Origin: a virus
IMG/VR virus record: IMGVR_UViG_3300036831_000056
Location: 1-30,993 of that record
Reading direction: 5' to 3' (one strand)
DNA length: 30,993 bases
Positions 2,928 to 29,359 of this stretch are shown here, in pieces; the stretch's first letter is position 1; each line of letters starts with the position of its first letter. The translations under genes and the position numbers were made by a program. Below the pieces are notes generated by a model. It did not search any database. It was not told the origin of the DNA and saw nothing but the letters and a program-made list of their open reading frames with translations.

Positions 2928-4071
2928 CCCGCTCCTCCTCGGTCAGTTTGCGTTTCCCGAACTTGCTGCTCGGCCGGCTCCTGACGTAGCTCTCGATTCG
3001 GATCGGCTTGCCGTCTTCTTCGTCTTGCTCGATCCGGTCCCAATCGGTGACCCGTGTGGACTCCTGCTTCACATCGAACGCGAAGTCACCGACCACAATT
3101 GGCTTCCCGGTCTCCTTGACCCGCTCCCGACAAATGGTCTGGTAGCGGCCTTTCTCACGCTCCAGGGCCATCAACTGTGAGAAGGCATCCTCAGCGTCCT
3201 CGTCGGTGTCGACGGTCTCTACCTCCCGGAGATGAGCTGGAATCGGGCACTCAGACTGGGCGGGGCAGGTAGCGCACCAGGAACCGTCCCGCGCATCCCA
3301 CTTACCGGACGTAAGCGACTCCTCGAAGTGCTCAATGTTCCGTTCCAGTGAGCCCCGGAACTCGGCGAGCTCTGAGCGGGTCCAAGATGCTTCGCGCTCG
3401 ACCAGCGGCCCCTCCTTGGTCCTGTAACGCGGGTACTTCTCGAAGAACCAGACCGTGTTGATGCCTGCACCCAGGATGAGGCCGCTCTCCTGTTGGAAGC
3501 CATCGAGCAGCGCCAGTCCGTACGCCTGCCCCTGGAAGCCGCGCTCTACGTCCTCCTTGTTGCGGACGTTCAGGGACGTCTTGTAGTCGTGGACGTACAG
3601 CGTGTCGTCCTGAACCTCCAGCATGTCGAGGTGGCAGGTGAAGCGCCAGCCGCAAAGGTCGACCTCGAGCGGCACCTCGACGCCGATGAGGTTCTCCAGG
3701 TCCAAGACCGTGGCCTCTGCCCAGTTCCAGGCCATGAGGCGGACCGCATCTTGCTGGGCGGTCGGCAGAACAAGCTCCGTGTGATCCCGCATCACCGCAT
3801 CTGCCAGATCGCGCGCAACTTCACCGGGCATGATCGGCTCGCCGTGGTCGATCATTTCTTCCGTCGCACGCTGGGCGAAGAGGTGGAAGGCCGAGCCGCG
3901 ATCCATTGCCACTGAGGTCGTCTGGTATTTGAGGCTCAGGTAGGCGGACCTTGGGCAATGGTCAAAGAGCGCCATGAGGGACTGCCTCAGCGTCTCGGGC
4001 GGCTCGGGCGGCTCGATGTTGGTCTCGACGGGCGGGAAGTCGCGGAGGTTGAGCGGGGCGAGGGTCGTCAC
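2911..4071 (-). CDS. PD-(D/E)XK exonuclease, RecB/Cas4-like with Fe-S cysteines
   Basis: A nuclease of the RecB/AddB/Cas4 group. I prefer the GTG at 4071 (386 aa): it overlaps the stop of the 27-aa gene upstream as GTGA and has GGAG 8-9 nt before it. An ATG at 4089 would add six residues but has no ribosome site. Numbered from the GTG, catalytic motifs are His63 (RGSAFH), Glu132, Asp149 (HLD) and Asp162-x-Lys164 (VHDYKT). Cys39 (HCPRS) together with the C-terminal cluster CATCPAQSECP matches the split four-cysteine Fe-S site of AddB/Cas4 enzymes. Next to a Rad52/Sak-type annealing protein it probably makes single-stranded DNA for phage recombination (a Red-like pair). Confidence 0.85.
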   Translation of the reverse strand: MTTLAPLNLRDFPPVETNIEPPEPPETLRQSLMALFDHCPRSAYLSLKYQTTSVAMDRGSAFHLFAQRATEEMIDHGEPIMPGEVARDLADAVMRDHTELVLPTAQQDAVRLMAWNWAEATVLDLENLIGVEVPLEVDLCGWRFTCHLDMLEVQDDTLYVHDYKTSLNVRNKEDVERGFQGQAYGLALLDGFQQESGLILGAGINTVWFFEKYPRYRTKEGPLVEREASWTRSELAEFRGSLERNIEHFEESLTSGKWDARDGSWCATCPAQSECPIPAHLREVETVDTDEDAEDAFSQLMALEREKGRYQTICRERVKETGKPIVVGDFAFDVKQESTRVTDWDRIEQDEEDGKPIRIESYVRSRPSSKFGKRKLTEEERDARTG

Positions 4072-4151
4072 CGATCCCGCTCCACCCATATCGTCGCGCC
4101 AACGCCGATCAGAGCCGCAGCGAAGAAGAGCAGGCCCAAGAGGTCAGCCAT
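4068..4151 (-). CDS. 27-aa single-TM peptide between annealase and exonuclease
   Basis: A very short gene: an ATG at 4151 overlaps the annealing-protein stop by 8 bp, the same overlap seen for two other gene pairs in the early operon. It ends in a GTGA overlap with the exonuclease GTG. The product, MADLLGLLFFAAALIGVGAT plus a charged tail WVERDR, is one hydrophobic segment, so a membrane micropeptide is expected. The start-stop coupling on both sides is the best evidence that it is translated. The function is unknown; it could also be merely a coupling leader for exonuclease translation. Confidence 0.55.
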   Translation of the reverse strand: MADLLGLLFFAAALIGVGATIWVERDR

Positions 4152-4944
4152 TCGACCGCTCCTCAAGACCCGCGACCAGTTTTTCCAGTTCCTCGTGTGA
4201 GTGCGCAGCGCCGGCGAGGGCCCGTTTAAAGGCCGCAGGGGTCATCCCTTTGCGCTGGTCTTTGTCGAGGCCCGTGTAGAGCTTCCCAGCGGCATCAGCG
4301 AGCGCCTTGGCCTTGGCGTCGTTCAGCGGCTCAGGCTGCTCTGAGAGTTCTGGCTGCGCAGACGCGGGCTCCTCGGCCTCAACGTCTCCGACGGCTCCCT
4401 CTACATCGCCGTGATCGAGGACCGGGCCGAACATCTTCTCCCCCGTCTTCTTCAACCATTCTGAGTAGCCCTCGGCCAGTTTCGTGCGGCCCTTGTCGGT
4501 CAGCTTGAAACGGTCCTTGCCTTTCTCGGTTTTCCCGTCCGCCGCAAGGTGCCCGTTGTCGGTCGAGAGGAACAGTTTCGGTAGGGCGTACAGCGAGACG
4601 CCGACGCCGAATTTCACGGCTGCACGTTTGAACGCGTCCGAGTAGAGACCCTTTCCTTCGTAGCCGCTCCCCACATCGAGCCGGGTGATTCCGTCAACCG
4701 TGAGTCGGCAGAGCAGACCCTTGCCTCCAGCGATTGCCTCGTACTCGTCCGACCACAGATGCGGGCAAACGTGGTTGAGTCGCTCGGCAGCGAGGCGGGC
4801 GTCGATGTGAGGGACTACGAGCTTGCCGGTCTGGACTTTCCAGCGAACTGCCTCCGCGGTGAAGGGGCGCCGGAGATGAACCGCAGCCTCGCGGATGGTG
4901 TCGACGGGCAGGAGAACCCCGCCAAGTTTCGCGTTGTCCGTCAC
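4144..4944 (-). CDS. Rad52/Sak-type single-strand annealing protein
   Basis: A 266-aa protein. Residues about 30-130 carry the Rad52/Sak signature: a basic N-terminal region, NHVCPHLWSDEYE, LTVDGITRLDVGSG, and the hallmark YSDAFKRAAVKFGVGVSLY. The remaining half is acidic, Pro/Glu-rich linker plus a helical C-terminus, as in many phage annealases where it contacts ssDNA-binding protein. These proteins anneal complementary ssDNA for phage recombination and genome circularisation. The gene is followed by the exonuclease, and its start overlaps the Cro-like gene stop (ATGA), placing it first among the early genes proper. Confidence in the superfamily is high; the exact subfamily is inferred. Confidence 0.85.
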   Translation of the reverse strand: MTDNAKLGGVLLPVDTIREAAVHLRRPFTAEAVRWKVQTGKLVVPHIDARLAAERLNHVCPHLWSDEYEAIAGGKGLLCRLTVDGITRLDVGSGYEGKGLYSDAFKRAAVKFGVGVSLYALPKLFLSTDNGHLAADGKTEKGKDRFKLTDKGRTKLAEGYSEWLKKTGEKMFGPVLDHGDVEGAVGDVEAEEPASAQPELSEQPEPLNDAKAKALADAAGKLYTGLDKDQRKGMTPAAFKRALAGAAHSHEELEKLVAGLEERSNG

Positions 4945-8819: not shown

Positions 8820-10847
8820 TCACAACGTCCGCCTTGAGAGAACCGACGCGAGGCTCGGTTCTTCAGAGAGTTCCAGGCCGCTTACGGCAGGCGTCAGGGC
8901 TCGTGGTGCGATCAGGGGGTTGAGCGGGCTGAGGGCGGCGGAGAAGCGGCCGTACTGCGAGTTGGCGACCTGCTGAGCTTCGCTGCCAGGCGCAGTGCCA
9001 CCGCCGACCGCTCCCGCTCCTGCCGGACCTGAGACGATTGCCCCGCCCGGTCCGATTGCCGCGCCGGGAAGAACCGCTGATTCGTGAACCGCGACTTTCC
9101 CGCCTTTGTACCCGGGGCGCACGATGCCTGCGATCGGCTCAGAGGCGGTCTCCTGGGACACCGGAGCCTGAGCGACTTCGTTGCCGTAGTTGCCCGAGAT
9201 CATCTGGCCGTTGCCGATGTAGAGGCCGACGTGCGCGGTGTGAGAAGTCGGGCCGAAGACGAGGATGTCACCTGGCTTGGCCTGCTGGAGGTTCGTGCCG
9301 ATGTTCTTGCCGCCCTTCCAGGTCAGCCACGATCCGGAGTAGGCGGGATCGGCAGGCATCGGAAGGCCGCGACGTGCGACACCGGCTGCGATGAACTCCG
9401 AGCACCACGGTTCCGCGGCACTGACGCCGGACTTCGCCGCCCACTTCAACTGAAGCCGCGAGCCCTCCTGTGTCCCGAGGAGAGCTTTCGCCCAGCCGAC
9501 CATTCCCTTTGCGTCGGCTCTGACGAAGACAACGTGACCACCGCCCCTTTCGGCGTCACCCGAATGCAGCGGGATGCCCAAACCGACCGCCTTGGCTTTG
9601 GCCTGCGCGAGTGATTCCCTGGCCTTTTGCGCTGCTGGGCTTGTCCCGGTTCCGTGGTTAAAGGCCCCGAGGATCTGCTGGGCCTGTGCGTCGTGGGTGC
9701 CGTAGGTTTCTTCGCCGCCGAAAGCCGACCCCTGAACCGTTTGTGCCAACTCACCCGGAGTTTCACCGCGTCCCCCAGGAATCGCCGGGTCCGTTTTGGT
9801 CTCTTTGAAGAATTCGCGGGCCGATTTCTTGACGTTGAGACGGCCGGAGTAGTAAGGCGCAAGCTCCTCGCGCCAGCCTGCCGTGTCTTCCCCGAAGCCA
9901 TTTTCGTAGGGCTTGAGGTTCTTGAAGCCAGTCTCCTGGAGGCCTGTGTCGATCGCCGCCAGCATTTCCTTCCGGGAGGCACCCACTGCCCGGCCAACTT
10001 TGAGGACCTCGCGAGCAATGTGCGCTTCTTCCTGGCCCAGACCCGGTAGCGGACCGCCTGTCGTTTTTGCGACCTGTTGCCTCGCCGCCAAGAGCTGGCG
10101 CTTGGCTTCCTGTCGTTCGCTCTGGGTCCCTTTTCGCGGCACTGCATCGGTTGCCTGAGCGCCGCCAGCTAGATGGACGATCTGAGCGAGTAGGTGTCGC
10201 CCACTCGCGATTTCCCGAGGTGACGCGCCTTCCTTTTCGAGTCCTCGCAGTTGGCGGGTACTGCCCTCGATGCTTTTCGCTTTCAGGTGGGCGCCCGTCT
10301 CAGAGTTTTTCTCCTTTTCACCAACCTGCTTTTCACCGGGATGGAGTTGCGCCATGGTGAACGGGGCGCTTCTGGGAACTGGCGAGGGCTGCCCGGCCTT
10401 AACCGCGTGGAGAACTCGCGCGATTGACGGCGCTGACTTCGGGACCTGCGCTACATCCTTGGCGATCTGGTTAGCGCCCTCTGATGCGGCTTTGGTGATC
10501 GAGGAGGCGATCTTGCTCACCGCAGCAGCAGGCGCCGCTAGGGGCTGCACGCCGAGCCTGTGAGCGGCCTGTGCGTTGTGGTGGTCCTCCTGGGTGGACC
10601 CAGGCGTCAGGAGGGCGCTGAGTGATCCCAGGAGGCCATGCGGAACGGTGCTACGGGACGAGGCCGATGGCGGGCGATAGGTCGGCCCCGTATAACCGGA
10701 GACGGGAGCGCTCGGAGGTGCAGTGTTTCGAGGATCCGCAGGCACACCCGGCTGGGGGACGCGGCCCTCGTGTTCGGCTACAGGAGTTGGACGAGGACCC
10801 CGCGCTCCCTTGATGGCTTCACGAATTATCCCGGACCCAAAGCTCAT
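8820..10847 (-). CDS. Virion peptidoglycan hydrolase: transglycosylase + CHAP/NlpC-like
   Basis: A 675-aa late virion protein with two cell-wall domains. Residues about 275-400 resemble a lytic transglycosylase-like domain: AAIDTGLQETGFKNL (catalytic Glu305 candidate), a GW turn, then SAREFFKET. Residues about 470-580 are a cysteine hydrolase of the CHAP/NlpC-P60 superfamily, with Cys482 in EPWCSEFIAAG, His539 in AHVGLYIGNGQ, and KPGDILVFG between. The first ~45 residues repeat those of the 1291-aa protein (AEHEGRVPQPGVP at 24-36). The C-terminus is Gly/Ala-rich. By order it is the fourth internal-protein gene and probably enters the cell wall during DNA ejection. A GGAG site lies 11 nt before the ATG. 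Confidence 0.85.
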   Translation of the reverse strand: MSFGSGIIREAIKGARGPRPTPVAEHEGRVPQPGVPADPRNTAPPSAPVSGYTGPTYRPPSASSRSTVPHGLLGSLSALLTPGSTQEDHHNAQAAHRLGVQPLAAPAAAVSKIASSITKAASEGANQIAKDVAQVPKSAPSIARVLHAVKAGQPSPVPRSAPFTMAQLHPGEKQVGEKEKNSETGAHLKAKSIEGSTRQLRGLEKEGASPREIASGRHLLAQIVHLAGGAQATDAVPRKGTQSERQEAKRQLLAARQQVAKTTGGPLPGLGQEEAHIAREVLKVGRAVGASRKEMLAAIDTGLQETGFKNLKPYENGFGEDTAGWREELAPYYSGRLNVKKSAREFFKETKTDPAIPGGRGETPGELAQTVQGSAFGGEETYGTHDAQAQQILGAFNHGTGTSPAAQKARESLAQAKAKAVGLGIPLHSGDAERGGGHVVFVRADAKGMVGWAKALLGTQEGSRLQLKWAAKSGVSAAEPWCSEFIAAGVARRGLPMPADPAYSGSWLTWKGGKNIGTNLQQAKPGDILVFGPTSHTAHVGLYIGNGQMISGNYGNEVAQAPVSQETASEPIAGIVRPGYKGGKVAVHESAVLPGAAIGPGGAIVSGPAGAGAVGGGTAPGSEAQQVANSQYGRFSAALSPLNPLIAPRALTPAVSGLELSEEPSLASVLSRRTL
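10762..10780 (-). repeat. 19-bp exact repeat, copy 1 (ejected-protein tag)
   Basis: CGGCCCTCGTGTTCGGCTA occurs exactly here and at 14807-14825, both encoding the AEHEGR part of the shared N-terminal tag of two virion proteins. The flanking DNA is less similar, so protein-level conservation or an old duplication explains it. Confidence 0.8.
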
Positions 10848-11032
10848 TTGGCGCTACGCTCCTCGACGATGGACGACTTCCATTCGATGTCGTGGGGCCG
10901 GGCGTTTCTGTATCTGCCCGTTGGGATCGCGGTGATCGTCGGCCTCGCGCTGGCTCCAGTGTGGGTCGCGCCGATAGTGGGCGGCATCATCCTGGTGGGG
11001 CTGCTCAGCGGTCTGCTCTGGTCGTAGCGCAT
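10844..11032 (-). CDS. Possible 62-aa coupling ORF between two virion genes
   Basis: On the minus strand an ORF fills the whole gap: its ATG overlaps the stop of the 1291-aa gene (TGATG) and its stop overlaps the start of the hydrolase gene (ATGA). That is the exact packing style of genuine genes here. The predicted protein (MRYDQSRPLSSPTRMMPPTI...) is Arg/Pro/Thr-rich with no recognisable domain and several AGA/AGG codons, which looks more like a shadow frame. A plus-strand membrane protein lies antisense to it, so only one of the two is likely real. Confidence 0.35.
   Translation of the reverse strand: MRYDQSRPLSSPTRMMPPTIGATHTGASARPTITAIPTGRYRNARPHDIEWKSSIVEERSAK
10869..11027 (+). CDS. 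Possible plus-strand 52-aa two-TM membrane protein
   Basis: An antisense reading of the 10848-11031 gap gives MDDFHSMSWGRAFLYLPVGI followed by two convincing hydrophobic segments ending in LVGLLSGLLWS. Third-position GC is as high as in real genes, but the opposing minus ORF shares the same wobble bases, so codon bias cannot separate them. No Shine-Dalgarno is visible and no plus-strand promoter was recognised. If real, it is a lone opposite-strand membrane gene inside the structural operon. Confidence 0.35.
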   Translation: MDDFHSMSWGRAFLYLPVGIAVIVGLALAPVWVAPIVGGIILVGLLSGLLWS

Positions 11033-14000
11033 CACTTGCCCAGGCTTTCTGCGAACCCTTCAGCGAACCCGCCCCCGCCACTGGACCCTCCGAGGGTTTC
11101 CGCGAATCCTTCCGCGAAGCCGCCGCTTGACGACGAGCCGCCCGAGGTCGCCGGGACTTTGATCTCCTTCTGCGGACGCCGCAACGATTCCGCCTCGCCT
11201 TTCGGGTAGGTGCGTAGCGGGTTGATCTCGCCCAGCGGACCCTTTTTGATGAGCCCTTCCCCGGTGTAGAAGCCCGGCGTGAAGGAGGTCAGGAATTCTT
11301 TGAGCGCTATGCCGATGTGGCTGAGTTCGGTGCCGCCGAGTTCGTTGCCCTTCCAGTCGCGGCCCTCGAGCGCTTCGACCGGGCCCTTCTCGACCGGAGC
11401 GATCATCCCGGCGATGTTTTCCGCCGGGCTGCCGAAGAAGCCAAAGGAGGTGTAGCGGTTGATCTTCTGGGTAATGCCGCCGTTGAAGGGGATGTTGCCC
11501 TGGAGCCACGGAGGAAGTGGTTCGTTGCCGAGCAGGCTCAGGCCGAGTTTTTCGCGCTCGGGCTGGGTCATCCGCCCCACCGCCGTCAGGAGCGCGGTCT
11601 GGATCGGGCGGTGCGCCGGCATCGTCGAGTAGACGAATTTGGTCGCGTTTTTGATCCAGTTCGCGAACGGGACGATGTTGAGCGTCACCTTGCGATAGCC
11701 CGCGCTCATGTTCGTCCAGTTCATGAGGACGTCCTCGATTGACTTCTGGGCGCGGATCAGTTTCGCCGGGTCGTGCAGTCCCTTCGCGTAGTCCTCAGCC
11801 AGCGCGTTCATGTGGACGATGGCTTTGCCCCATGAGTGCTGAGTGGCGCGGAAGTCTTGGAGCGCTGCCTTGCCGAGAGAGCCGTACTCCGGGAGCCGCT
11901 CGCTGACGACAGCATTGAACTTCAGGAGCGCATTTGAGGTGTGCCGGTAGCCGTCGACAAACTGCTTGACGCCCGGCTTCGCTCTGAACGCGGCGACCGA
12001 CCGTGCGCCCGCTTCCCACGCCTTCTCGCCATCGAAGACCGCCGCCGTGGTGCGATGGGCGGAATTTGCATCGATTTCTGAGGTGCGCTCACCCGAGAGG
12101 AGCGATGCGCGGTCGTCCTCGGAAAGGTTCTTGGCGATGTGGCGCCCAAGGTACATATGAACCGGATTGATCCCCGCGAGGCCAGCTTTCAGCCAGTTGT
12201 CGAGAGGCACCTGGAACTGGTAGGTCGGGCTGAAGGGCAGCACGGCGCGTTTGTAGCCCGTGGTGACCGCCTGCACCGTCTTTTGGACCTTCCCGGTGCC
12301 CGCGTACTGCTTGCGCGCCTCGTCCATCACTGGCTTCGGGATGAAGGTGATCGGTCCGTCGCCCGCCATCGGGTCTTTGAAGGCCCCAGAGAGCAGGTCT
12401 TCGCTGATGACAGACGGATGCTGGTTCTCGAGCGCGCCCTGGATCTCGCCTTTCGTCGATGCCCACGGGTATCGACGCACCGCCTCCCAAGTGATCCCCT
12501 CAGGCAGTTTGTGCCGTGCCGGGTCGCGGATCACACGAGCAGCGTCGGCACCGTCGTGGACTCCGGGAACCTGGACGCCGTAGTGCGAGATCATCTTGTC
12601 GTAGGTGTCGCTCGCGTCGAGGAGAGACTGAGAGCGCATCATTTGCTGAGCGACCGCGTCCCAGCCGGAAGCATGCGTTCCCTCAGCTGTGGATAGCCCG
12701 GTGCGGACGCCTCGAGGTAGATGGGCGCGGCTCGGGAAAGGCTTCGTGTAGTAGTCGCCTGCGCTCCCCGGCCGGTGACTGATGAACCCGGCCGGCTGGA
12801 TTCCGCGCCGCTCCATCTCGGCTTTGATCTGCGCGAGGCTGAGCGGGTCCCCATGCGGATCGAGCAGTTGGGAGTGGTTCTCCTCGGCGCGGCGGATCGC
12901 AGCGACGGCTTTCCCATGCTCATGCGTCAGCGATTTCGCCAGCTCGGACTCGGGATTCTCGTGACGGGCGAGTTCGGCAGCAGCGGCCAGCTGACGCTCG
13001 TGACTGACCCTCTCGCTGATGATCGACGCTTTCTCGTTGGGCACGCCGTACTCCGCCCCCATGTGAACCACGGCGAATGGACGGGCCGCAGCGTGGAGTG
13101 CTTGGTCGGGCGCGAGCAGTCCACGTTTGGTGAGCTCGTCGACAATCGGCTGATGAGCGGCAATAAAGGCGTCTGCGGCCTTGACGACATGAGCGGGGTT
13201 GGCGCGCGCGATGCCCTGGTCGAGTTGAGTGACCATCTCCCGGTTCGCCTTGAGCTGCCCCTTGTCGAGCATCAGCTTCCCGTCAGGACCCGTCTGGTGG
13301 GCCACCTCGTCGATCTGCTGGCGGTATTTCGGCAGATCCTCCGCGAAGGTCTCCGGGTGCTGGACGATGCGCTCAATCGCGTGGACGACGATGTTGGCCG
13401 TTGCTGTGTCGAGCTTCTTGAGCGGCCCCCTGCCGACCTGGGGCGCGATTTCCTTGATCGTCTTCTCGACACCGCGGCGGTTCTGCTTCTGGATTTTGTT
13501 GCGGTCGCTGACGAACCGCCGCGTGGAGTCGGTCGCCCGATGTTCAAACTTCGCCCGTCCGCGTCGGCCGCCCTCCGTGTTGATGACGTTGCCCGAGCGC
13601 CTGTCCTGGGCACGCTGGATTCCTTGGCGAAAGAGGTCGCGTGAGTAGTTGCCGCGCTCGACCTTGAGGTTCGGGTAGCCGGGGACCGTGAGCGCGGGCC
13701 GCTCCAGCCCTCCGACGTGGTCGTGAGTAGCTGCACGGGCCGCCGCTCCTGCGCCACGTCCGAGAACCGAGGCGGCACCGCTTCCTTCCAGAGCCGAGAG
13801 GAGCGGCCGTTCACCGAACCGCTTGAGGACCAAGGACGGATCCCCCGAGGCGATGGCCGGGAGCAGCCCCGTGGCGAGGTACTGCTTCTTCAGTTCGTCC
13901 CATTCCTTGTTGTCGCCCTGTGCGGCGTTGACTCCAGCCTTGGCGGCGAGGAATGTAGACGGGAGGACGGAGGTGGGCAGCTCGACGGCTTCCTTGGCGA

Positions 14001-14907
14001 TCTTGCCGCCGTAGGGAGCGATGTCCTTGGCGAGCGTGTTGTCGATCGAGGCGAGCGTCCCCTTGCCGCTGAATGCCTTCCCGAGTTCCCCCGGGTTGCC
14101 GTGCAGGAGGGCGGCGGGCACCTCGGCGGCGACGGGAGCGGAGAAAGGGTGCTTGACCGTGAGGCGCGCTGGAGCTGTCGCGGTTCGCACGCCGACCCGG
14201 ATGGGCTTCGGTACCTCTCCGACGCGCTTGGCAGCCGCCTGACGCGCCGTGCGGATGAAGGATGGCTCGGCTTTGCGGGCGGTTCCTCTGGCAACTCCTC
14301 GAACTGCGCTGCGGGCTGCTGCTCGCTTGGCACCCACCGCCCCGAGCCCCCGCAGAAGCGCTGACTGCGTAGCTGCGCCGCCCACCTGCTTGACCCCTGT
14401 GGCCCCAGCGTCGGCGATGGCCTGTTTGGCTGCTGCGGCTCCGGTGTCCTCGACTGCGGTCTCGGCGCCGGCGCGAGCGAGAGAGGCGATGTCTCCGGCT
14501 CCCGTGGCGGCGAGGATGGCGTTGGTCAGGTCTTCGGGTTCTCCAAGATTGTCGCTGGGGAGATCGGTGATCCGAGCGCGTTCTGCTGTCGCGTAGGCGG
14601 CTGGGTTTGTCGACGCGAGTTTCGCGGGCGGTTTTTCCCCGAAGGACGCTTTGAAGATCGCCTCGCTCGGAGCCTCGAAGTGGCTTCCGGCGTTCGCGAG
14701 GAAGTGCAGTGAGTGGTTGACCGCCCGCTGGGCACGCAGCCGGACCTGATAGCTCGTGGGCGCGACGGTCTGCCGCGGGCCGCGAGGGACTCCAGGTTGA
14801 GGGACCCGGCCCTCGTGTTCGGCTATGCGGTGCGAGTGAGCCTGCGACGCTTCTTTGCGCCGCATCCCCCGGAGAACTGCGGTCGGGATGTCAAGGCCGA
14901 AGGGCAT
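11032..14907 (-). CDS. Large internal/ejected virion protein
   Basis: A 1291-aa protein, by length and position the counterpart of T7 gp16 or other large ejected podovirus proteins. The N-terminus carries the tag AEHEGRVPQPGVP (residues 29-41), then an Ala-rich region and long helical stretches. The middle to C-terminal part (KRAVLPFSPTYQFQVPLDNW, later NIVPFANWIKNATKFVYST) resembles the membrane-seeking 'fixed landing' segments of large polyvalent phage proteins, as far as I can judge. The end has a Gly/Ser linker and a duplicated GGFAEGFAExLG motif. No catalytic motif was recognised. It lies between two smaller helical virion proteins and the cell-wall hydrolase. Confidence 0.75.
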   Translation of the reverse strand: MPFGLDIPTAVLRGMRRKEASQAHSHRIAEHEGRVPQPGVPRGPRQTVAPTSYQVRLRAQRAVNHSLHFLANAGSHFEAPSEAIFKASFGEKPPAKLASTNPAAYATAERARITDLPSDNLGEPEDLTNAILAATGAGDIASLARAGAETAVEDTGAAAAKQAIADAGATGVKQVGGAATQSALLRGLGAVGAKRAAARSAVRGVARGTARKAEPSFIRTARQAAAKRVGEVPKPIRVGVRTATAPARLTVKHPFSAPVAAEVPAALLHGNPGELGKAFSGKGTLASIDNTLAKDIAPYGGKIAKEAVELPTSVLPSTFLAAKAGVNAAQGDNKEWDELKKQYLATGLLPAIASGDPSLVLKRFGERPLLSALEGSGAASVLGRGAGAAARAATHDHVGGLERPALTVPGYPNLKVERGNYSRDLFRQGIQRAQDRRSGNVINTEGGRRGRAKFEHRATDSTRRFVSDRNKIQKQNRRGVEKTIKEIAPQVGRGPLKKLDTATANIVVHAIERIVQHPETFAEDLPKYRQQIDEVAHQTGPDGKLMLDKGQLKANREMVTQLDQGIARANPAHVVKAADAFIAAHQPIVDELTKRGLLAPDQALHAAARPFAVVHMGAEYGVPNEKASIISERVSHERQLAAAAELARHENPESELAKSLTHEHGKAVAAIRRAEENHSQLLDPHGDPLSLAQIKAEMERRGIQPAGFISHRPGSAGDYYTKPFPSRAHLPRGVRTGLSTAEGTHASGWDAVAQQMMRSQSLLDASDTYDKMISHYGVQVPGVHDGADAARVIRDPARHKLPEGITWEAVRRYPWASTKGEIQGALENQHPSVISEDLLSGAFKDPMAGDGPITFIPKPVMDEARKQYAGTGKVQKTVQAVTTGYKRAVLPFSPTYQFQVPLDNWLKAGLAGINPVHMYLGRHIAKNLSEDDRASLLSGERTSEIDANSAHRTTAAVFDGEKAWEAGARSVAAFRAKPGVKQFVDGYRHTSNALLKFNAVVSERLPEYGSLGKAALQDFRATQHSWGKAIVHMNALAEDYAKGLHDPAKLIRAQKSIEDVLMNWTNMSAGYRKVTLNIVPFANWIKNATKFVYSTMPAHRPIQTALLTAVGRMTQPEREKLGLSLLGNEPLPPWLQGNIPFNGGITQKINRYTSFGFFGSPAENIAGMIAPVEKGPVEALEGRDWKGNELGGTELSHIGIALKEFLTSFTPGFYTGEGLIKKGPLGEINPLRTYPKGEAESLRRPQKEIKVPATSGGSSSSGGFAEGFAETLGGSSGGGGFAEGFAESLGK
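11035..11127 (-). repeat. Tandem GGFAEGFAE(T/S)LG repeat at protein C-terminus
   Basis: The end of the 1291-aa protein encodes GGFAEGFAETLG, a Gly/Ser spacer, then GGFAEGFAESLG(K). Each copy is itself an internal GFAE-GFAE doublet. The DNA copies are similar but not identical. It may be a docking tail onto another virion protein. Confidence 0.7.
14807..14825 (-). repeat. 19-bp exact repeat, copy 2 (ejected-protein tag)
   Basis: An exact match to 10762-10780, in the first codons of the 1291-aa gene, and again coding for AEHEGR. Confidence 0.8.
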
Positions 14908-14913
14908 CTGGAC

Positions 14914-15750
14914 CTATTCGAACGGCTGCACGCGGGGTCCCAGCGGAACTCCGGGCTGGTATGAGCGGCCTGAATGTTCGCGGGAGCGCAAGAGACGGCG
15001 CAGGATTTCGACCGCCTTGAGAGCCGTGTTCGGGTCTTCGCCGCCGCTGGTCGTGGAGATGTGCTTGGCGAACTTCAGCCACCACGCATTTGCTTCCGGT
15101 CCCGCTGATTCAGAGAGGATCTTGGCGTAGGGGACAGCCGGTTCGGTGCTGGTCCCCTTCGTCGATTTCCCTGAGCGGGCCAAGCTGAGCAGTTCGTTGT
15201 AGCCGTTTTTCGCGATCAGCAGGGCGTTCTGAAGAGCTTTTTCCCGCTTTTCAGCGTGCTCGCCTTCCGTCTTCAACGCGCTCGATCCTTCCCCGCGGAG
15301 TTCCTTCAACCTTTGGTTGAGTGCCGCAGAGGCGCTTGACTGCATTGCGGCGCGGTCCTGCACAAGCTGAGTGCGATCTTTGGTCAAGGCCGCGCGGTGT
15401 TCTTCCTGGGCACCGGCGAGGAGTGACGGGAGCGCGTTGGCTGCCTGACCCTGAAGGCCGCCGAGCTGTTCCTCCAACTGGCGCCTGTAGGTCCCGTTGA
15501 GTCCGTCCTGCGGAATTCCCTTCAGCGCGTTCGTCAGCTCGCTGCTGACCAACCCGGTTGCGGCCTTCGCAGAACGAGCCTGGGCCCCGTATTCCTGGTT
15601 GGCGATCCTGAAGGCGGCGCGGTCCGCACCGAGCTTCGGCGCGGCCGTCCGGCGTGCGGCTTCCTTGGTGCGGTGAGCTTCGAGTTTGCGGATTGGCGGA
15701 GCGACCTGTACCGGGTGCAGCACCTTCGATCCGACTGTCGGGACTCTCAT
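14914..15750 (-). CDS. Helical internal virion protein
   Basis: A 278-aa, mostly alpha-helical, Ala/Gln/Arg-rich protein with coiled-coil character across residues ~60-180 (for example ELTNALKGIP, RQLEEQLGGLQGQAANALPS). It has no catalytic motif. The C-terminus ends SGRSYQPGVPLGPRVQPFE, whose QPGVPxGPR echoes the QPGVP tag of the two larger virion proteins. The gene overlaps its upstream neighbour (ATGA) and is followed after 6 bp by the 1291-aa gene. The place matches the internal core proteins of T7-like virions; assignment is by position and composition. Confidence 0.65.
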   Translation of the reverse strand: MRVPTVGSKVLHPVQVAPPIRKLEAHRTKEAARRTAAPKLGADRAAFRIANQEYGAQARSAKAATGLVSSELTNALKGIPQDGLNGTYRRQLEEQLGGLQGQAANALPSLLAGAQEEHRAALTKDRTQLVQDRAAMQSSASAALNQRLKELRGEGSSALKTEGEHAEKREKALQNALLIAKNGYNELLSLARSGKSTKGTSTEPAVPYAKILSESAGPEANAWWLKFAKHISTTSGGEDPNTALKAVEILRRLLRSREHSGRSYQPGVPLGPRVQPFE

Positions 15751-16712
15751 TTGCCCTTACCTCCTTTGGCGCCGCCCTTCCCGCTCGGTGCCTTCGTGCC
15801 CCCAGTAGGAGCTGGGCGCCCAGCAGATTTCCGTTCGGCCTGTTTGATTGCTTCGGGGTGACTCTGTTTCCAGTTGGCGAAGACAGCCGGATGTTCTGCG
15901 CGGGCGGCGTAAATCTCCTCCGCGAGACTGGCGACGTTTTTGCTTTCCTCCTCGACCTTCGCCCGTTCTCTTTCGCGGTTGCCTTCAAAGAGCTTCCGGC
16001 CTGCGGCGCGCTGTTCTTTGGCGCGTTCGACTCCAGTGGCCTGTTTGAGCCTCCCGAGTGACTGCGCTCGGTCGGCGGTGACTTCGCCCTGTGCGGTCCC
16101 GATTCGTCCGAGAGCAGTCGCGAGGTCCTCTCGTCCGCGTTCCTGGGCGGTGTGAACCGGCGCTTCGGCGAGTCGCTGGTTGCCGCCGCGAGCCGCTGCG
16201 CTGGCCGCTTGAGTGCCAGCATCGAGGACACCGGAGGCGTTTGCCTGTTCGGCTTGGCGCTGGCCCAGCTGGCCGAAGTTCCGCGCGATGTTGGTCAGCG
16301 TCGTGCCGAAGTCCTGTTCGCGTCGCCCTGCCGTCTTCTCGGTGTCTGCGGTCTGGTAGTCGAGCTTTTGGTTGGCCTGCCTTGTCGATTTGTTGATGTC
16401 CTGGCGTTTCTGGGTCGTTGCGATGTGGATCGCCTGGAGTGCCTGATGCAGGTCCGTTTTCGCAAAGTGCGCTTTGCTCGCTACATCCTGGGTCGTGTCT
16501 TCATAGCCGCGCTGTGCTTCGAGGCGCTGGGCCTCGATGGACGGGTCGTAGCTGAAGAACGGGACTTCTGAGCCGCCGGCAGCCGCAGGGTTGGGCTTTG
16601 GCGAGGGCTTCGAGCTCGGGTTGTAGGGGGTACCCCCATTGGATCCGGTGCCCAAGCCCGGACCGACGCCTAAACCCCTGCTGAGTCCGAGCCGCCTCAT
16701 ACGGGCTTCCAT
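15747..16712 (-). CDS. Helical internal virion protein with disordered ends
   Basis: A 321-aa protein: a Gly/Pro/Ser-rich N-terminus to about residue 45, then FFSYDPSIEAQRLEAQRGYE and a long helical region with an Arg/Gln heptad look (FGTTLTNIARNFGQLGQRQA, then ASGVLDAGTQAAS), and a Lys/Gly C-terminal tail. Proteins with this R...Q...ASGVL...G pattern are frequent among virion genes of phages of high-GC hosts. It starts 15 bp inside the preceding gene. By gene order it is the first of the ejected or internal proteins. Confidence 0.65.
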   Translation of the reverse strand: MEARMRRLGLSRGLGVGPGLGTGSNGGTPYNPSSKPSPKPNPAAAGGSEVPFFSYDPSIEAQRLEAQRGYEDTTQDVASKAHFAKTDLHQALQAIHIATTQKRQDINKSTRQANQKLDYQTADTEKTAGRREQDFGTTLTNIARNFGQLGQRQAEQANASGVLDAGTQAASAAARGGNQRLAEAPVHTAQERGREDLATALGRIGTAQGEVTADRAQSLGRLKQATGVERAKEQRAAGRKLFEGNRERERAKVEEESKNVASLAEEIYAARAEHPAVFANWKQSHPEAIKQAERKSAGRPAPTGGTKAPSGKGGAKGGKGK

Positions 16713-17403: not shown

Positions 17404-19178
17404 CGTCGAATCGCCTCACTCGGTCGGGTGTCTAGCTCCAGGGATCGAAGAACAAAGAGGGAGATCGGGCCAGAGGATTTGATCCTGACTCGCATGTAGC
17501 GGAGTCGCTTTCCGAGGCGAAACTTGACCGGATTGCGACCATCGCTCGGGCCCGCTTCACCAACCTGGGTGAAGGAAGCCCCGCCATCGTCCGCCCAGTC
17601 GAATTCGTCCCAGGTACTCTCGTCCCACTCCGCCTCGCCGGTTTTCAGCGAGCCGTCGCTGTAGTAGACGCGGATTTTCGGATCGTCGTTGGCGGGGTCA
17701 ACCAGTGAGTAGCGTGGCTTCACCGCCTTGACCACGTTGAGGGTCTGGGAGCCGGTTTCAAAGTCACGGGTCGTGAGGTCGACTTCGTGGGTTGAGCCGT
17801 CGGCGTCCATTGCGTGTTCTGAGTCGGGCTGGAAGTAGTGGGTGCAATCGACGATCTGAGAGGGAGCACGTCGCTGGGCACCGAGCAGGAGTGGGTCGCC
17901 GGTGACCGGGACGTGGACCGCGTAGCTAATGATCTCTCCGCCATCTCCGAAGAACCGCGTCCAGGGAAATATCCAGCGGCGCCGGATTCGGAGTGGGTGT
18001 TCGAGGTTGCAGACGAGCGTGGTTTTGATTTCGCCCTCGCTCGTGAGCATCGGGAGCAGAACGTGCCCATGGAAGATGGCGCCGTTCCCCGGGATGCAGC
18101 CTTCAAGAACCAATTCGCGGTAGTAGCGGTCGATCGGCCAAGTGATGAGAGACGGGGCGCTGACGCCGTCCATCAGGTAGCAACCGTCCATCGCCGGGAC
18201 GAGGAGCTGCTGGCTCACTCCGGCCAGGCCGGCTGCGTTGACCAGCACAACGTCTGAGGAGAGGAGCTGGAGGCGGTGCTGCGCGTTCCCATTCTGATCC
18301 GTGATCGCCAGCGCCAGACCTTCGAGCACCCAGATGCCACCCGTGGTGAAGACCAGAACCGCCTCACCCATCGTCGCTAAGCCCCGTCCTTCTACGCCTT
18401 CGGGGAGCGTGTGTTCGTTCGTCGTCCCGAGCGAGTTGGTGAAGGTATGCGGATTTTCGACCTCAGTGAACTTGATCGTGCGGCCGTTCAGCAAGACGAG
18501 GCGGTTGGCGCAGACACAGAGGAAGTCCCACGGTTCGTAGGGGTCCGAGCCGCCGACAGTCCAGATCGGGTTCAGCGAGTAGCTTTTTTCTTCGCCGGTT
18601 GACCCTTGATAGGCGTCTCGCAAGGTGATCTGCGTCGGTGAGTCGATTGAGGCGATCACGTAGACGCGCTCCGTGCCCGTGTGGAAGAGCATCCCCGCGT
18701 CGACCAGCGTGTTCCAAGTCGTCCCGGAGCCTTTGACGACCTTGGAGCCCTGTTCGACTTTGACGGTGCCGGTTGAGTAAGGAGCGGCCTTGCGCGAGCC
18801 GCCGTAGATCGAGCCGCCGCCGATGAAAAGCATGTCGTCGAGCGCTGCGGCTTGCTTGGGGATCGGCAGCCCTTCGCCACCGAGATTGACCTGTGCTTTG
18901 CCGCCGTCCAACACGCCGAAGCTCGAGTCATCAGCAAAGACAGTTCGCTGACCCGGCAGCAGATAGCCATCCCAGTTCCAGGTCAGACCTGCCCCGGAGA
19001 ACGAACCGCTCGAGTAGTTCTTCGTCCCCCCGCGCAGGTAGGGCTGGCCGTCTTCATCCAACAGGCAGTTCCCGAGGTCGTAGGCGCCGTTTTGGGGGAT
19101 CAGCTCGGGCGCTATGTCGCGGACCATCCCGTAGCTGAAGTCGCTCTGAGATTGCCGGGACCGGAGCGCGCCGGGCAT
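17400..19178 (-). CDS. Tail nozzle / stabilisation protein (tubular protein B-like)
   Basis: A 592-aa protein. It begins SQSDFSYGMVRDIAPELIPQ, a motif like the FxxGLN starts of podovirus tail-nozzle proteins. It then shows many short beta blades (WNWDGYLL, RLVLLNGRTIKFTEVENPHT, GIWVLEGLALAI), suggesting the beta-propeller platform of T7 gp12 or P22 gp10-type proteins. The length is within that range. It follows the tubular-A-like gene with an ATGA overlap and precedes a minor tail gene. The virion role is well supported by order and architecture; exact orthology is inferred. Confidence 0.75.
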   Translation of the reverse strand: MPGALRSRQSQSDFSYGMVRDIAPELIPQNGAYDLGNCLLDEDGQPYLRGGTKNYSSGSFSGAGLTWNWDGYLLPGQRTVFADDSSFGVLDGGKAQVNLGGEGLPIPKQAAALDDMLFIGGGSIYGGSRKAAPYSTGTVKVEQGSKVVKGSGTTWNTLVDAGMLFHTGTERVYVIASIDSPTQITLRDAYQGSTGEEKSYSLNPIWTVGGSDPYEPWDFLCVCANRLVLLNGRTIKFTEVENPHTFTNSLGTTNEHTLPEGVEGRGLATMGEAVLVFTTGGIWVLEGLALAITDQNGNAQHRLQLLSSDVVLVNAAGLAGVSQQLLVPAMDGCYLMDGVSAPSLITWPIDRYYRELVLEGCIPGNGAIFHGHVLLPMLTSEGEIKTTLVCNLEHPLRIRRRWIFPWTRFFGDGGEIISYAVHVPVTGDPLLLGAQRRAPSQIVDCTHYFQPDSEHAMDADGSTHEVDLTTRDFETGSQTLNVVKAVKPRYSLVDPANDDPKIRVYYSDGSLKTGEAEWDESTWDEFDWADDGGASFTQVGEAGPSDGRNPVKFRLGKRLRYMRVRIKSSGPISLFVLRSLELDTRPSEAIRR

Positions 19179-19810
19179 CAGGCCGTCTCCCCGAGGATGC
19201 CAACCTGGAAGACGCCCTCGCCGACCTGCCGCTCGTTGTCGTAGCGGGTCAGATCGGAGATGGCCTGATCGCCTTTCTGACGGTTGATTTCCGCCAGTTC
19301 CTCGTTGTCCTCGACCGTTTCGTAGTAGATCTCCTGGGCGAAATAGCGCAGCTTCGAGTGCCAGTAGGTCGGGAAGGCTGAGGGGCCGCGAGACGGTTCT
19401 GAGGAACTCAGCGGGATGGGTTCGTAGACGTACTCCAGTGAGACCGTTGTGCCGGCGGCGAGTTCGGGATAGAAGGCCAGCACGCGATTGCCGCTTTCGT
19501 CAGTCGACTCGTAATAGACAACGGGCTCGAGCAGCAGCAGTTCGCCTTTTTCGTACTGGCGGACTGTGTCGCGGTCCGTCGATCCGACCGGGTAGCCGTT
19601 GACCTCGAGCGTTCCCGTCAGCAGATAGTCGCCAGGCAGCGCCACCGTGGTCTGCCCCTCAGAGGTCGGTCCGAGTTCGACGGTCTTCCGCGGCCAGCGT
19701 GAGCGTCGCGCCGCGTTGACCTGGCCATCGTTGAAGAGATCGGCAGCCTCAGCCGCAGAGAGATCCAGACCGCCGAGTTCGAGTCGCGCTGTTAGTTCTG
19801 CGAGGTCGAT
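19178..19810 (-). CDS. Tail adaptor (tubular protein A-like); start codon unclear
   Basis: The first annotatable start is a GTG at 19645 (155 aa, beginning MALPGDYLLTGTLEVNG). The same frame stays open 55 codons further upstream and encodes a protein-like stretch, LSAAEAADLFNDGQVNAARR then SRWPRKTVELG, typical of adaptor proteins. This extension contains no ATG/GTG/TTG before an in-frame TAA, only an ATC at 19810 with GGGGA six nt before it. The true product is therefore an ATC-started protein, a -1 frameshift product of the preceding gene, or the shorter form. The remainder (FPTYWHSKLRYFAQEIYYET) is helical, as in T7 gp11-like head-tail adaptors. Confidence 0.6.
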   Translation of the reverse strand: MDLAELTARLELGGLDLSAAEAADLFNDGQVNAARRSRWPRKTVELGPTSEGQTTVALPGDYLLTGTLEVNGYPVGSTDRDTVRQYEKGELLLLEPVVYYESTDESGNRVLAFYPELAAGTTVSLEYVYEPIPLSSSEPSRGPSAFPTYWHSKLRYFAQEIYYETVEDNEELAEINRQKGDQAISDLTRYDNERQVGEGVFQVGILGETA

Positions 19811-20400: not shown

Positions 20401-21591
20401 TCAGCCGGTGATGCCCGTCATCACGCCTCCGGTTTTGGGCTGTTTGACCTCGTAGCCGCTCTCGGTCAGGATCTCGTCCTTCTGGCCGTCAGCGTCGGGC
20501 GCCTGACGGTTGGTGAGAACCTTCGTGTCGCGGGAACCTCCGGGAGCATTGGCGCCTCCCAGGAAGCGGTACTGAGGCGCGGCCTGACCGAAGTCCACCG
20601 CGATCATATAGCCGCCCCAGACAGTCCCCTCGAGCAGGTTGTGCTTGACGAGGTTCAGGGTTCCGTGCGGGCTCATGTACTGCTTGATCGCAAGCCCGTA
20701 GGTCGTGTCCTGATCGCTCTGAATCGTCTGGAGACGACCCACCGCGAAATTGTTGATGACCGACAGGGCCAGCGGCGAGCAGAAGACCGTCTTCTTGCTG
20801 CTGCCGTAGCGCGTCAGTGAGCGGACCCAGGACTCCAGCTCGGACTCGGTCATCGTGCCGCCGGCGTCCTGGTTGTTGCTCGTCAGGAATGAGAGCAGCC
20901 CCGCCGTGGTTTTCAGCGTCTTGCCGCCGGGTCCCGTTGTGGAGCCCTTGCCGCCGAACAGCGCCTTGTACTCGAGCGTCTTGAGGTGCTCGATGTTGCG
21001 CTTTTTGTGCTCGTAGATCCAGGCGTGCGGGTTCGTCAGGTTCCCCGAGCTCATCGCGGTTCCTGATTCCTCGATCGAGGTCCGCGTGATCTCCGTGTAG
21101 TTGGAGATCGTCGTCGGGGCCTTGCGACGAGCCGTGAGGGACGTGCCGCCCTCTTCCACGACCGCACCGATGACGATGAGCGGGTCATCGTCGACGAGCG
21201 CGGCTTTGGTCGAGCCGGAGTACCCGCGGGTGCATTTGATTTTCGTGCTCGAGATGAGTTCCTTGACGAACAGGATCTCGCCTGTGCGCGGAACCCGGAC
21301 AAGCGCATTCGCGTAGAAGATTTCCTGCGTATCTACGGCGATTTCTTCTTCGGATTCCGTGTAGCCGCCGCCGTTGTTGACAGCGTCCCAGCGCGAGTCG
21401 AGCTCGTCCTCGACCCACTTGAATTCCGAGTCTTCGGTCGAGCGGACGTTGCCGCCGTTTTCGATGCTCTTGGTGATGACGGTAAGCGGGGCCGCTTCCG
21501 GCTCCAGGAGGAGGATGTCCCTGTCGAGGGCAATCGCTCGCTGGGTCGAGGAGAGGTTGCTTACCTGTGACTGTCCAGTTATGAAGCTCAT
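20401..21591 (-). CDS. Major capsid protein, SU10 family
   Basis: A 396-aa protein with the layout of SU10-type (DUF5309) capsid proteins: an early FKWVEDELDSRWDAVNNGGG, a central SNYTEITRTSIEESGTAMSS and long helix EHKKRNIEHLKTLEYKALFG, then VKHNLLEGTVWGGYMIAVDF and a final TESGYEVKQPKTGGVMTGIT. Matching of these blocks is from memory of the family. It follows a scaffold gene and is trailed by a strong hairpin, as expected for the most abundant virion protein. The start has GGAG and a small upstream hairpin. Confidence 0.85.
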   Translation of the reverse strand: MSFITGQSQVSNLSSTQRAIALDRDILLLEPEAAPLTVITKSIENGGNVRSTEDSEFKWVEDELDSRWDAVNNGGGYTESEEEIAVDTQEIFYANALVRVPRTGEILFVKELISSTKIKCTRGYSGSTKAALVDDDPLIVIGAVVEEGGTSLTARRKAPTTISNYTEITRTSIEESGTAMSSGNLTNPHAWIYEHKKRNIEHLKTLEYKALFGGKGSTTGPGGKTLKTTAGLLSFLTSNNQDAGGTMTESELESWVRSLTRYGSSKKTVFCSPLALSVINNFAVGRLQTIQSDQDTTYGLAIKQYMSPHGTLNLVKHNLLEGTVWGGYMIAVDFGQAAPQYRFLGGANAPGGSRDTKVLTNRQAPDADGQKDEILTESGYEVKQPKTGGVMTGITG

Positions 21592-21624: not shown

Positions 21625-22374
21625 TTAAAAGACGCTGCCGCCTTTGCTGCCGAGAAGGGCTTTTTTGTACTGCTCAGCCTCGGAGTCCTCGCCCGCCTGG
21701 GGTTGTCCCGGCCCTGTCTCCAGGGTCGCTCCGTTTGATCCAGCCTGCTCGGCCGGTACTGCACCAGCGTCGGCCAACTTGGCCTTCGCGGCGGTGTAAG
21801 CCATGCTCAGAAGGTTGGTGTCGTAGACAACGCTCTCGTTGCCGTAGCGCTCAGCCAACCCCTCCATCGTGGCGACGATCTCGTTGAAGAGCTCGCTGCC
21901 GGGGGTTACGTCGGGACGCTCCTTTTGCCACGCCTGAACCTGCTCGGTCTGGCGCTGCTCGAGGAGCGGGTTGACGACTTCCTGCGCCAGCCCGCGGATG
22001 TAGTTCTCCAACTCGGCCTGCTGCGCTTGCTCCTGCTGCGGGTCTGCTGGCTGCTCGGCCCCCATGCCGAATTCCGCGAGTTCCTCGGGGGTTAGCCCAA
22101 GGTCGTCGACTGGCTGGAGGGCGGCGAGAAGATCGTTGGGCTGCCCCTGGCCCTGAAGCTCGGCCAACTGTTGCTCGGCCTGCTGGGCGCGCTGCTCCAT
22201 CTCTTGCAGACGAGCGGCGTGGTCCTGCTCGGGAGTCTGAGGGGCCTGAGGTTCCTGGGGCGCGGGAGGCTGCCCCTGCGCGGGTGCCAGAGGGGCGGCC
22301 GGCGCTGCGGGGGCCTGAACCTGCCCGTTGCCGTCTGCCGCTGCGGGTGCCGCCGGAACGCTCGCTGCCTCCAT
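21625..22374 (-). CDS. Capsid scaffolding protein
   Basis: A 249-aa, Ala/Pro/Gln-rich protein directly upstream of the capsid gene. It has a disordered N-terminus, coiled-coil heptads about residues 50-85 (LQEMEQRAQQAEQQLAELQG), a helical acidic middle (ENYIRGLAQEVVNPLLEQRQ), and a short basic C-terminal end (EAEQYKKALLGSKGGSVF). Position, low complexity and coiled coil with a charged C-terminal tail are the usual marks of scaffolds that guide procapsid assembly. No protease motif is visible. Confidence 0.8.
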   Translation of the reverse strand: MEAASVPAAPAAADGNGQVQAPAAPAAPLAPAQGQPPAPQEPQAPQTPEQDHAARLQEMEQRAQQAEQQLAELQGQGQPNDLLAALQPVDDLGLTPEELAEFGMGAEQPADPQQEQAQQAELENYIRGLAQEVVNPLLEQRQTEQVQAWQKERPDVTPGSELFNEIVATMEGLAERYGNESVVYDTNLLSMAYTAAKAKLADAGAVPAEQAGSNGATLETGPGQPQAGEDSEAEQYKKALLGSKGGSVF

Positions 22375-27439: not shown

Positions 27440-29359
27440 TCAGCCTCCTACGGGTTGAGGTGCGGACCCGTTAGAGGAGCCGCTGGATTCAGGTTCGGGG
27501 GGGTCGTTGGACGGACTAAGGACTTGGCCGTGGGCGGCTTCGAGGATCTTCTGGATCTCCTCGGGCGGGATGCCTGCCTGCTGCATCGCCTCCCCGATGC
27601 CTTTGACGGCCTCTTCGGTGCTCGGGCCCGGCGGAAGCAGAAGTTCCTCGGGTTCGGCATGACCGAGTTTTCGCAGCGTCGACTTGGCGAGGGCGCGCTT
27701 GTCGATCTCTTCCATGAAGGGAGAGAGGGCATCGACCTCCTGCACCGCATCAGCGCGTTTCTGGGTCTCGTTCTCGGATTCAGTCGAGCCGTCCACTGGG
27801 GCGACTTCGATCTTCGCGTTAAGCTCGGCAGGTCCGACTTCCTGGAAGCTGTAGGAGGGTTTGCCGACTCCGGTCTTTTCGAGGCGGACGTTTTTCGGCT
27901 GTTTTTCGTCGGTGACGTGCTGGCGCAGCAGTTCGTACATCTGCTTGGCGGCCGGCACGAGCAGGTCGACGTGGAGGTTCTTGGTCATCTGCTTGATGCG
28001 GCGGTTGGCGGCCGTCTGGAGCAGCTGGGTTTCCGTGGCGGTTTCTCCCCCGCTGGATCCGATGAAGGCTTCCGAGAGTCCCGAAGCCAGCTGGATGTCC
28101 TGCTTCAGCGCGTTCTCCTCCTCGACACTGGAGGAGGGCAGGTCGCGGATGTTGGCCTGCTTGATTACTTCGTCGGGGTTGCCGTCTATTGGGTTGAAGA
28201 CGCCGGCGCCCCAGACCAACTGTTTCGGGTTGAGCATCCCTCGCGTGTAGAAGAAGGGCGGACTGAGGGCGAGTGTCGCCGCGTCGCGTCGCTGTCCGCG
28301 CATTGCGTTCAGCTCGTATTGCAGATGGGCGATGGGCTCGGCCTCCCCAATGCCCACCAGCTCGTGCTCGACAATGGTTGGCCGGAAGATCTGAAATGGG
28401 AAGTCGCCGTGTAGAAATGGGTTTTCGGCTTCCTGCACCAGAAGCTCCCGGCCAAGAACTGTGTAGACGTTGTCGCGGTCGTGGTACTCCCAGACCTCAA
28501 AAAGCTCGTTCCCATCAACGCCTTCGTAGTGGGACATCCCGGCTGCCTGCATCCGTTCGGCCCAGACTTCGCCGCGGGCGGTCGTCGAGGCGAGACCTTT
28601 GACCCGTTCGAGGTCAAGTTCCGCCCAGCCGCCCGTTTCGTTCTTGGCTCGGCGCGCTTTGCCTTCGGCCACGCGATCGGTGATGTATTCCATCGAGCGC
28701 CAGGTGCGGTGAATGACGTAGCCCGCTGACTGGAGGTCATAGGCAATCGGGTCCCAGAAGAAGTCGAAGATGTCGACCGACTCGGCTTTGGGACCCTCGT
28801 AGACGCAGATGTGGTCGTCGTTGACTACTTGGTAGCCGGGTCCCGACTGGTTCTGCTGGATCTTCTTCCCGGAGCGTGTCTTGCACTCCCAGAAGGTCTT
28901 TTGGACGCCGAGGCCGTAGCGGAGTCCTGAGCGAACTGTTTCCTGCAACCGGCGGTCGTATGACATTTCCCGCTGCGTGGATTCGAGGAGGTTGGCGACG
29001 GGTTCGCACGCTTCTTCGTTTTCGCTGCCTGGGGCGGTCGGTTTGGCGGTTATGGTCGGCCCGTTAGCGAGGATCGCCGGCAGCACCGTCTCGATCGCCG
29101 TGTAGATCCAAGGGACGAACAAGTCCTCCCCGAAGACGCGCCTGAATTCCTGCATCACGGAGTCGCGGTCACGCTCGTTCTGGGCCTGCGCGTGGCGCTT
29201 GCGGAGGCGCTTGTAGTTGCGCGACAGCCCGTAGTAAGAGTTCCAGCGAGGGTCGAGGTCCTTGTGCTGACGCTCGCTAGCCCGGAAGCGCTTGGTGACG
29301 AGCTCGAGCGTCGATTTCTGCGCTTCGCTCAAGTCCTCCTTGGTGGCGAGGCCGGGCAT
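27440..29359 (-). CDS. Portal protein (podovirus type)
   Basis: A 639-aa portal. It begins with a helical DLSEAQKSTLELVTKRF, then WNSYYGLSRNYKRLRKRHAQ. Portal-like blocks include VPWIYTAIETVLPAILANGP, RSGLRYGLGVQKTFWECK and ASGLSEAFIGSSGGETATET, with the Thr-Glu-Thr...Q region and a long helix before the C-terminal barrel. The end is Pro/Ser/Asn-rich. A dodecameric portal of this size is the DNA gate and tail connection in podoviruses. It follows the terminase group, its start overlaps the preceding stop (ATGA), and it is followed by the receptor block instead of the usual scaffold. Confidence is high. Confidence 0.85.
   Translation of the reverse strand: MPGLATKEDLSEAQKSTLELVTKRFRASERQHKDLDPRWNSYYGLSRNYKRLRKRHAQAQNERDRDSVMQEFRRVFGEDLFVPWIYTAIETVLPAILANGPTITAKPTAPGSENEEACEPVANLLESTQREMSYDRRLQETVRSGLRYGLGVQKTFWECKTRSGKKIQQNQSGPGYQVVNDDHICVYEGPKAESVDIFDFFWDPIAYDLQSAGYVIHRTWRSMEYITDRVAEGKARRAKNETGGWAELDLERVKGLASTTARGEVWAERMQAAGMSHYEGVDGNELFEVWEYHDRDNVYTVLGRELLVQEAENPFLHGDFPFQIFRPTIVEHELVGIGEAEPIAHLQYELNAMRGQRRDAATLALSPPFFYTRGMLNPKQLVWGAGVFNPIDGNPDEVIKQANIRDLPSSSVEEENALKQDIQLASGLSEAFIGSSGGETATETQLLQTAANRRIKQMTKNLHVDLLVPAAKQMYELLRQHVTDEKQPKNVRLEKTGVGKPSYSFQEVGPAELNAKIEVAPVDGSTESENETQKRADAVQEVDALSPFMEEIDKRALAKSTLRKLGHAEPEELLLPPGPSTEEAVKGIGEAMQQAGIPPEEIQKILEAAHGQVLSPSNDPPEPESSGSSNGSAPQPVGG

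Follow-up and report, generated by a model that had tools for sequence, protein, structure and literature searches.

How the ejection proteins of short-tailed phages are selected into the particle is poorly defined, and the question is raised anew by a contig in which a short sequence recurs at the ends of several putative ejection proteins. The contig derives from an uncultured SU10-like podophage (IMG/VR record IMGVR_UViG_3300036831_000056), and the window analysed here is its whole stretch of 30,993 nt. On the minus strand a late gene block runs from the portal gene through tail-fibre-like genes and a putative scaffold gene to the coat gene, followed by genes for the adaptor, the nozzle and proteins of 158, 321, 278, 1291 and 675 aa. 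The SU10-type coat, portal and adaptor were recognised by Pfam (SU10_MCP 1e-42, SU10_portal 6e-17 and SU10_adaptor 8e-8, respectively). The window also encodes, on the minus strand, a tyrosine integrase (927-2054), a PD-(D/E)XK exonuclease (2911-4089) and a Rad52/Erf-type annealing protein (4144-4944), and the phage is probably temperate, with its own recombination pair. The recurring sequence, hereafter the tag, comprises ~16 residues with the consensus EHEGRxxQPGVPxxPR. The features concerned are as follows.

30127-30993, minus strand: terminase gene, cut by the contig end, so that the record is incomplete
27440..29359, minus strand: portal protein of the SU10_portal / P22_portal superfamily; candidate receptor of the tag
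21625..22374, minus strand: putative scaffold, by position and acidity
20401..21591, minus strand: major capsid protein (SU10_MCP)
19178..19645, minus strand: SU10-type tail adaptor; candidate neighbour of the tag receptor
15747..16712, minus strand: 321-aa protein, untagged, in the same gene block; putative internal/ejection protein
14914..15750, minus strand: 278-aa protein, mostly helical; putative internal/ejection protein
14932..14979, minus strand: tag copy 3, diverged, EHSGRSYQPGVPLGPR, residues 258-273 of the 278-aa protein
11032..14907, minus strand: 1291-aa protein (p1291 family); putative ejection protein
14773..14820, minus strand: tag copy 1, EHEGRVPQPGVPRGPR, residues 30-45 of the 1291-aa protein
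11035..11124, minus strand: C-terminal tandem motif of the 1291-aa protein, GGFAEGFAETLG ... GGFAEGFAESLGK, repeated
8820..10847, minus strand: 675-aa protein with an NlpC/P60 peptidoglycan hydrolase domain (residues 482-574)
10728..10775, minus strand: tag copy 2, EHEGRVPQPGVPADPR, residues 25-40 of the 675-aa hydrolase

The tag lies near the N-termini of the 1291-aa and 675-aa proteins. An earlier note on this DNA had described an identical AEHEGRVPQPGVP followed by xxPR on both, and the translations bear this out: AEHEGRVPQPGVP occupies residues 29-41 of the 1291-aa protein, where RGPR follows, and residues 24-36 of the NlpC/P60 protein, where ADPR follows. Of the MxFGxxIxxA start that had been ascribed to both proteins, MxFGxxI is indeed common, but the next A coincides only with a one-residue shift. 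The exact 19-bp DNA match at 10762-10780 and 14807-14825 was likewise recovered; as the DNA of the two copies carries 8 synonymous and 3 nonsynonymous codon differences among 18, this block is simply the best-preserved stretch of an older duplication. QPGVPLGPR, previously noticed near the C-terminus of the 278-aa protein, lies within EHSGRSYQPGVPLGPR, and this wider frame represents a third copy that has diverged (E = 5e-6 with the tag profile), whose aligned position is occupied by the canonical tag in relatives G007, G009, G012 and G014. No 7-residue word outside the tag is common to two different proteins encoded on the late strand of the window, and the tag profile matches the same three proteins in other phages at E about 1e-10 to 1e-15, which excludes chance.

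Gene order, together with the SU10-type portal, adaptor and coat, places these genes where ejection proteins lie, and from gene order and relatives we infer that the tagged proteins are carried inside the virion and ejected. The 278-aa protein was modelled from six sequences as helical (pLDDT 71) with a disordered tag (pLDDT about 40); the model supports helicity and the disordered tag only, and in a fold search it matched nothing at E <= 0.001. The model of the 1291-type protein (pLDDT 47) was too poor and was set aside. Outside the hydrolase domain no PHROG, Pfam, NCBIfam or PDB match was found, and relatives of the 1291-aa protein were detected neither by a single-sequence scan nor among cultured phages. 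An iterated profile of the 278-aa protein drifted into the 1291-type family, partly via the common tag, and was discarded, so that the comparison of 278-type proteins rests on a hand-made alignment. The family is very divergent between lineages, and the tag alone is constant. At their C-termini, 1291-type proteins of the window, G001, G005, G008, G010, G011, G014, G015 and G018 carry a short motif in 2-3 copies, repeated within a phage and unrelated between most phages: FAEGFAE(T/S)LG, SGV(S/A)GYM, SSF(G/A)ESWA, NPFS, AELDKQLGIP, VDYGKVFSG and SNPW.

A search for QPGVP in other phages had been suggested, and a profile search of whole records found the tag there on the same three proteins. It yielded 29 copies at E below 1e-5 in 16 of 19 phage records, or 14 of 17 without near-duplicates (G014/G016, G012/G017), the total of 16 being inflated by records that the motif itself recruited (motif scans contributed G009-G013, G017 and G018). 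Among phages chosen without the motif, 8 of 11 were tagged, with the window counted and the near-duplicate G016 dropped. Recruitment by the hydrolase domain alone gave three tagged (G003, G004, G006) and three untagged phages (G001, G002, G005), and a scan with the conserved 1291-type core, leader excluded, gave six records, five of them tagged (G007, G008, G014, G015, G016). The tag occurs only at three late-gene positions, and elsewhere in those records just weak, chance-level matches were seen. Hydrolases without the tag were found in G003, G007, G008, G010 and G011. The nearest relative found, G001, with a coat 77% identical to that of the window, has all the genes and not a single tag copy. 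Roughly half of what the first motif scan returned was chance similarity in other frames, and a further relaxed scan returned known loci only, plus one spurious match. Short-query searches of a collection of cultured phages and of the PDB gave no match to the tag, QPGVP in the literature matched unrelated peptides only, and a search of 84,980 bacterial and archaeal genomes for the exact pattern gave two matches only, rejected as chance since they lay in wrong reading frames of host-like DNA.

The tag is found in two lineages, of which A comprises the window, G001, G007, G008 and G014-G016 with the fragments G009, G012 and G017, and B comprises, among those tested, G003, G004, G010 and G011. 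Their coats differ (SU10_MCP / phrog_1328 in A, phrog_14242 in B): the comparison of coat profiles gave 0.1%, no similarity, a result limited by small alignments and compatible with a conserved fold, and that of scaffold profiles gave 1%, again no similarity, at a strength limited by small alignments. The portal profiles match (93%), and the adaptor is present in both lineages by profile search. In addition to portal and adaptor, both have the module formed by the 1291-type protein, the 278-type protein and the hydrolase. As the coats of tagged lineages differ, the tag works, if it works, with different coats. In the window (21625-22374, minus strand) and in lineage-A relatives the putative scaffold has a conserved C-terminal GA(S/T)LETGAGQ(T/P)QAG. 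In both coat and portal trees the untagged G001 and the tagged window are neighbours, and tagged phages branch outside them; loss of the tag in G001 is therefore the simplest history, and replacement of the leader by recombination would give the same pattern.

Every copy lies within about the first 90 or the last 25 residues of its protein. N-terminal tags are found between residue 8 and about residue 85 of 1291-type, hydrolase or fused proteins, C-terminal tags in the last ~20 residues of the 278-type protein, some of them 5-9 residues from its C-terminus; in G007, G009, G012 and G014 the C-terminal form ends GVPGPGRG(A). Tandem copies are present in G008 and G015, the latter with an additional degenerate repeat. 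Fusion of the 1291-type protein to the NlpC/P60 hydrolase, in a chain of ~2000 residues, is seen in G002, G004, G006 and G013; the fused chains of the last three have a single N-terminal tag, a second at the fusion joint being absent. All 14 distinct tagged phages have at least one copy at the junction between the 278-type C-terminus and the 1291-type N-terminus. Secondary motifs often follow the tag (SGGTSGDLSIPGY, PSASGYEYSPxTY, VPYAPTxxGK), and some of them also occur without it. A second leader motif, SGGTSGDLSIPGY...PYNPSAPPTPVQ, occurs both beside the tag and in its absence, on 1291-type proteins, hydrolases and fused chains of G002, G003, G007, G009, G012, G014 and G016. In G014 about 60 residues of leader are common to its two tagged proteins, and the leader has been transferred among genes and also across the two lineages. 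The earlier note had named, as the scenario that would undo its proposal, a recent duplication that took in the entire N-terminus in every relative, and this is not the pattern seen.

At the codon level, residues H6, E7, G8, R9, Q12, P13, G14, V15 and P16 are nearly fixed and their third codon positions vary widely. Over these nine core positions pN/pS was 0.05 (22 copies), against about 1.2 for flanking residues. Since motif-recruited copies were numerous, the calculation was repeated on the 8 phages found without the motif, where the core gave 0.08 in 16 copies, which include within-phage repeats and are not fully independent; the four preceding residues gave 1.19 and the variable internal positions 0.82. 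Between the hydrolase of G015 (lineage A) and the fused protein of G004 (lineage B), 19 codons show 10 synonymous and 0 nonsynonymous differences. The tag core is under strong purifying selection at the protein level, and the tag therefore acts as a peptide, not as DNA. A nucleotide-level bias is left over: the Glu before HEGR is encoded by GAA in 18 of 18 copies (background 51%), and the Gln of QPGVP by CAA in 9 of 22 (background 13%).

What would such a peptide do? The reading that we favour, and to which we give an even chance on the sequence comparisons, is that the tag, a short and probably disordered linear motif at a protein terminus, acts as an address by which ejection proteins are loaded or docked in the assembling particle. 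One receptor would bind HEGRxxQPGVP on any carrier protein, at either terminus, additional copies would raise affinity, and the receptor would lie at the portal vertex or be another ejection protein sitting there. The portal vertex is likelier than the coat because coat and scaffold differ between lineages while portal and adaptor are homologous, and by elimination it appears to be the leading candidate. The tag would then cause incorporation into the particle. We favour an address because the pattern observed is the one expected of an interchangeable terminal signal, and because known addresses of T4 and P1 and the N-terminal entry determinants of P22 gp7 and gp20 point the same way. The earlier note had proposed a packaging, docking or processing signal; packaging or docking fits the three late-gene positions, the terminal placement, the conservation at the protein level and the transfer between genes and lineages, whereas processing is less supported. 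Against an address, the proteins of the untagged G001, G002 and G005, and the untagged hydrolases of G003, G007, G008, G010 and G011, must be packaged otherwise, if they are packaged. Moreover, the 278-aa and 1291-aa proteins appear to match no known ejection-protein family or fold. In P22, incorporation of ejection proteins requires the scaffold and not the portal, and these proteins enter the procapsid without the portal (PMC8402733), an analogy that does not favour a portal receptor.

Several known systems offer parallels. The internal proteins of T4 carry terminal address sequences (PMC3012670), and IPI-IPIII resemble the present case in that a short terminal sequence is common to otherwise unrelated injected cargo. 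The T4 capsid-targeting sequence is N-terminal, acts via the scaffold core and is cut by the head protease, whereas the tag is another sequence, N- or C-terminal and sometimes in tandem, and a protease was not recognised among the window proteins scanned. In P1, the first 30 residues of DarB carry a reporter into the capsid (PMC9024508), so that there, too, 10-30 N-terminal residues target a very large injected protein to the capsid. The N-termini of P1 Dar proteins yielded no consensus (PMC9024508), whereas here the same sequence is plainly common to two or three proteins. A phage collection expected to include T4 and P1 gave no match to the tag as a short query. Like the ejection proteins of P22, SU10 and T7, the proteins described here are encoded in the late block, are large and include one peptidoglycan hydrolase, beside an SU10-type portal, adaptor and coat; SU10 ejects five proteins, a cell-wall enzyme among them (PMC9509320). 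The N-terminal parts of P22 gp7 and gp20 suffice for procapsid entry (PMC8402733). A common loading tag has not been reported for P22, SU10 or T7 ejection proteins in the literature searched, and family and fold searches gave no link between T7 gp14-16 or P22 gp7/16/20 and the 278-aa and 1291-aa proteins. Encapsulin cargo-loading peptides are likewise short, terminal, sometimes repeated and borne by unrelated cargo, and they bind the shell protein. Here the shell protein differs between tagged lineages, which argues against a shell receptor, a conserved fold being possible. The tag resembles the T4/P1 type in being a short terminal sequence common to several putative cargo proteins. It is best filed as a new variation on the capsid-targeting-sequence idea, and we do not claim membership.

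A more tentative extension, which we regard as rather unlikely, is a two-part code with separate readers, in which the constant HEGRxxQPGVP would be combined with the phage-specific C-terminal repeats of 1291-type proteins, and any protein furnished with HEGRxxQPGVP would be loaded and delivered. HEGRxxQPGVP, interchangeable between proteins, termini and lineages, would be recognised by a conserved receptor, which may sit at the portal vertex or belong to the host, and the C-terminal repeat by a partner that changes between phages.

The tag could instead be a docking motif among the ejected proteins, which would build a trans-envelope channel during or after ejection and have no role in capsid entry. 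The module of tagged proteins common to both lineages besides portal and adaptor would suit this, as would the copy at the 278-type/1291-type junction in every distinct tagged phage, but a conserved single partner within the module was not found, the 278-type protein being divergent with the tag alone constant; we consider this reading rather improbable. Still less likely, in our view, is that the tag, in assembly or once injected, binds a conserved factor common to the hosts, be it a chaperone, an envelope protein or a component of the cell wall. The constancy of the tag despite unrelated coats is expected for a partner that the phage does not encode, and host factors do act on ejection proteins, since P22 gp7 loses 20 N-terminal residues to the host protease OpdA (PMC8402733). 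Yet the closest relative, G001, has no copy left, probably by loss, and, with the exact motif absent from bacterial and archaeal genomes, the tag does not obviously imitate a host peptide. Proteolytic processing during maturation of internal proteins, for which the terminal location and the removal of N-terminal sequences by the T4 head protease and by OpdA could speak, is very unlikely: of those window proteins that were scanned, none was recognised as a prohead protease (the contig is incomplete), the 11-16 conserved residues in two invariant blocks exceed the need of most cleavage sites, and neither a tandem arrangement nor a position 5-9 residues from a C-terminus suits such a site. That the copies are neutral leftovers of duplication and exchange, or a nucleic-acid element such as a recombination site or RNA element, is highly improbable despite the clearly duplicated (60 codons in two genes of G014) and exchanged leaders and the invariant GAA, as conserved core residues with synonymous positions near saturation contradict it.

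If the tag is indeed a conserved, transferable loading address, the question of how short-tailed phages select their ejection proteins would reduce to moving or deleting 16 residues. The tag could then be used as a portable signal that brings proteins into phage particles, and it may provide a sequence handle for injected proteins that family searches miss.
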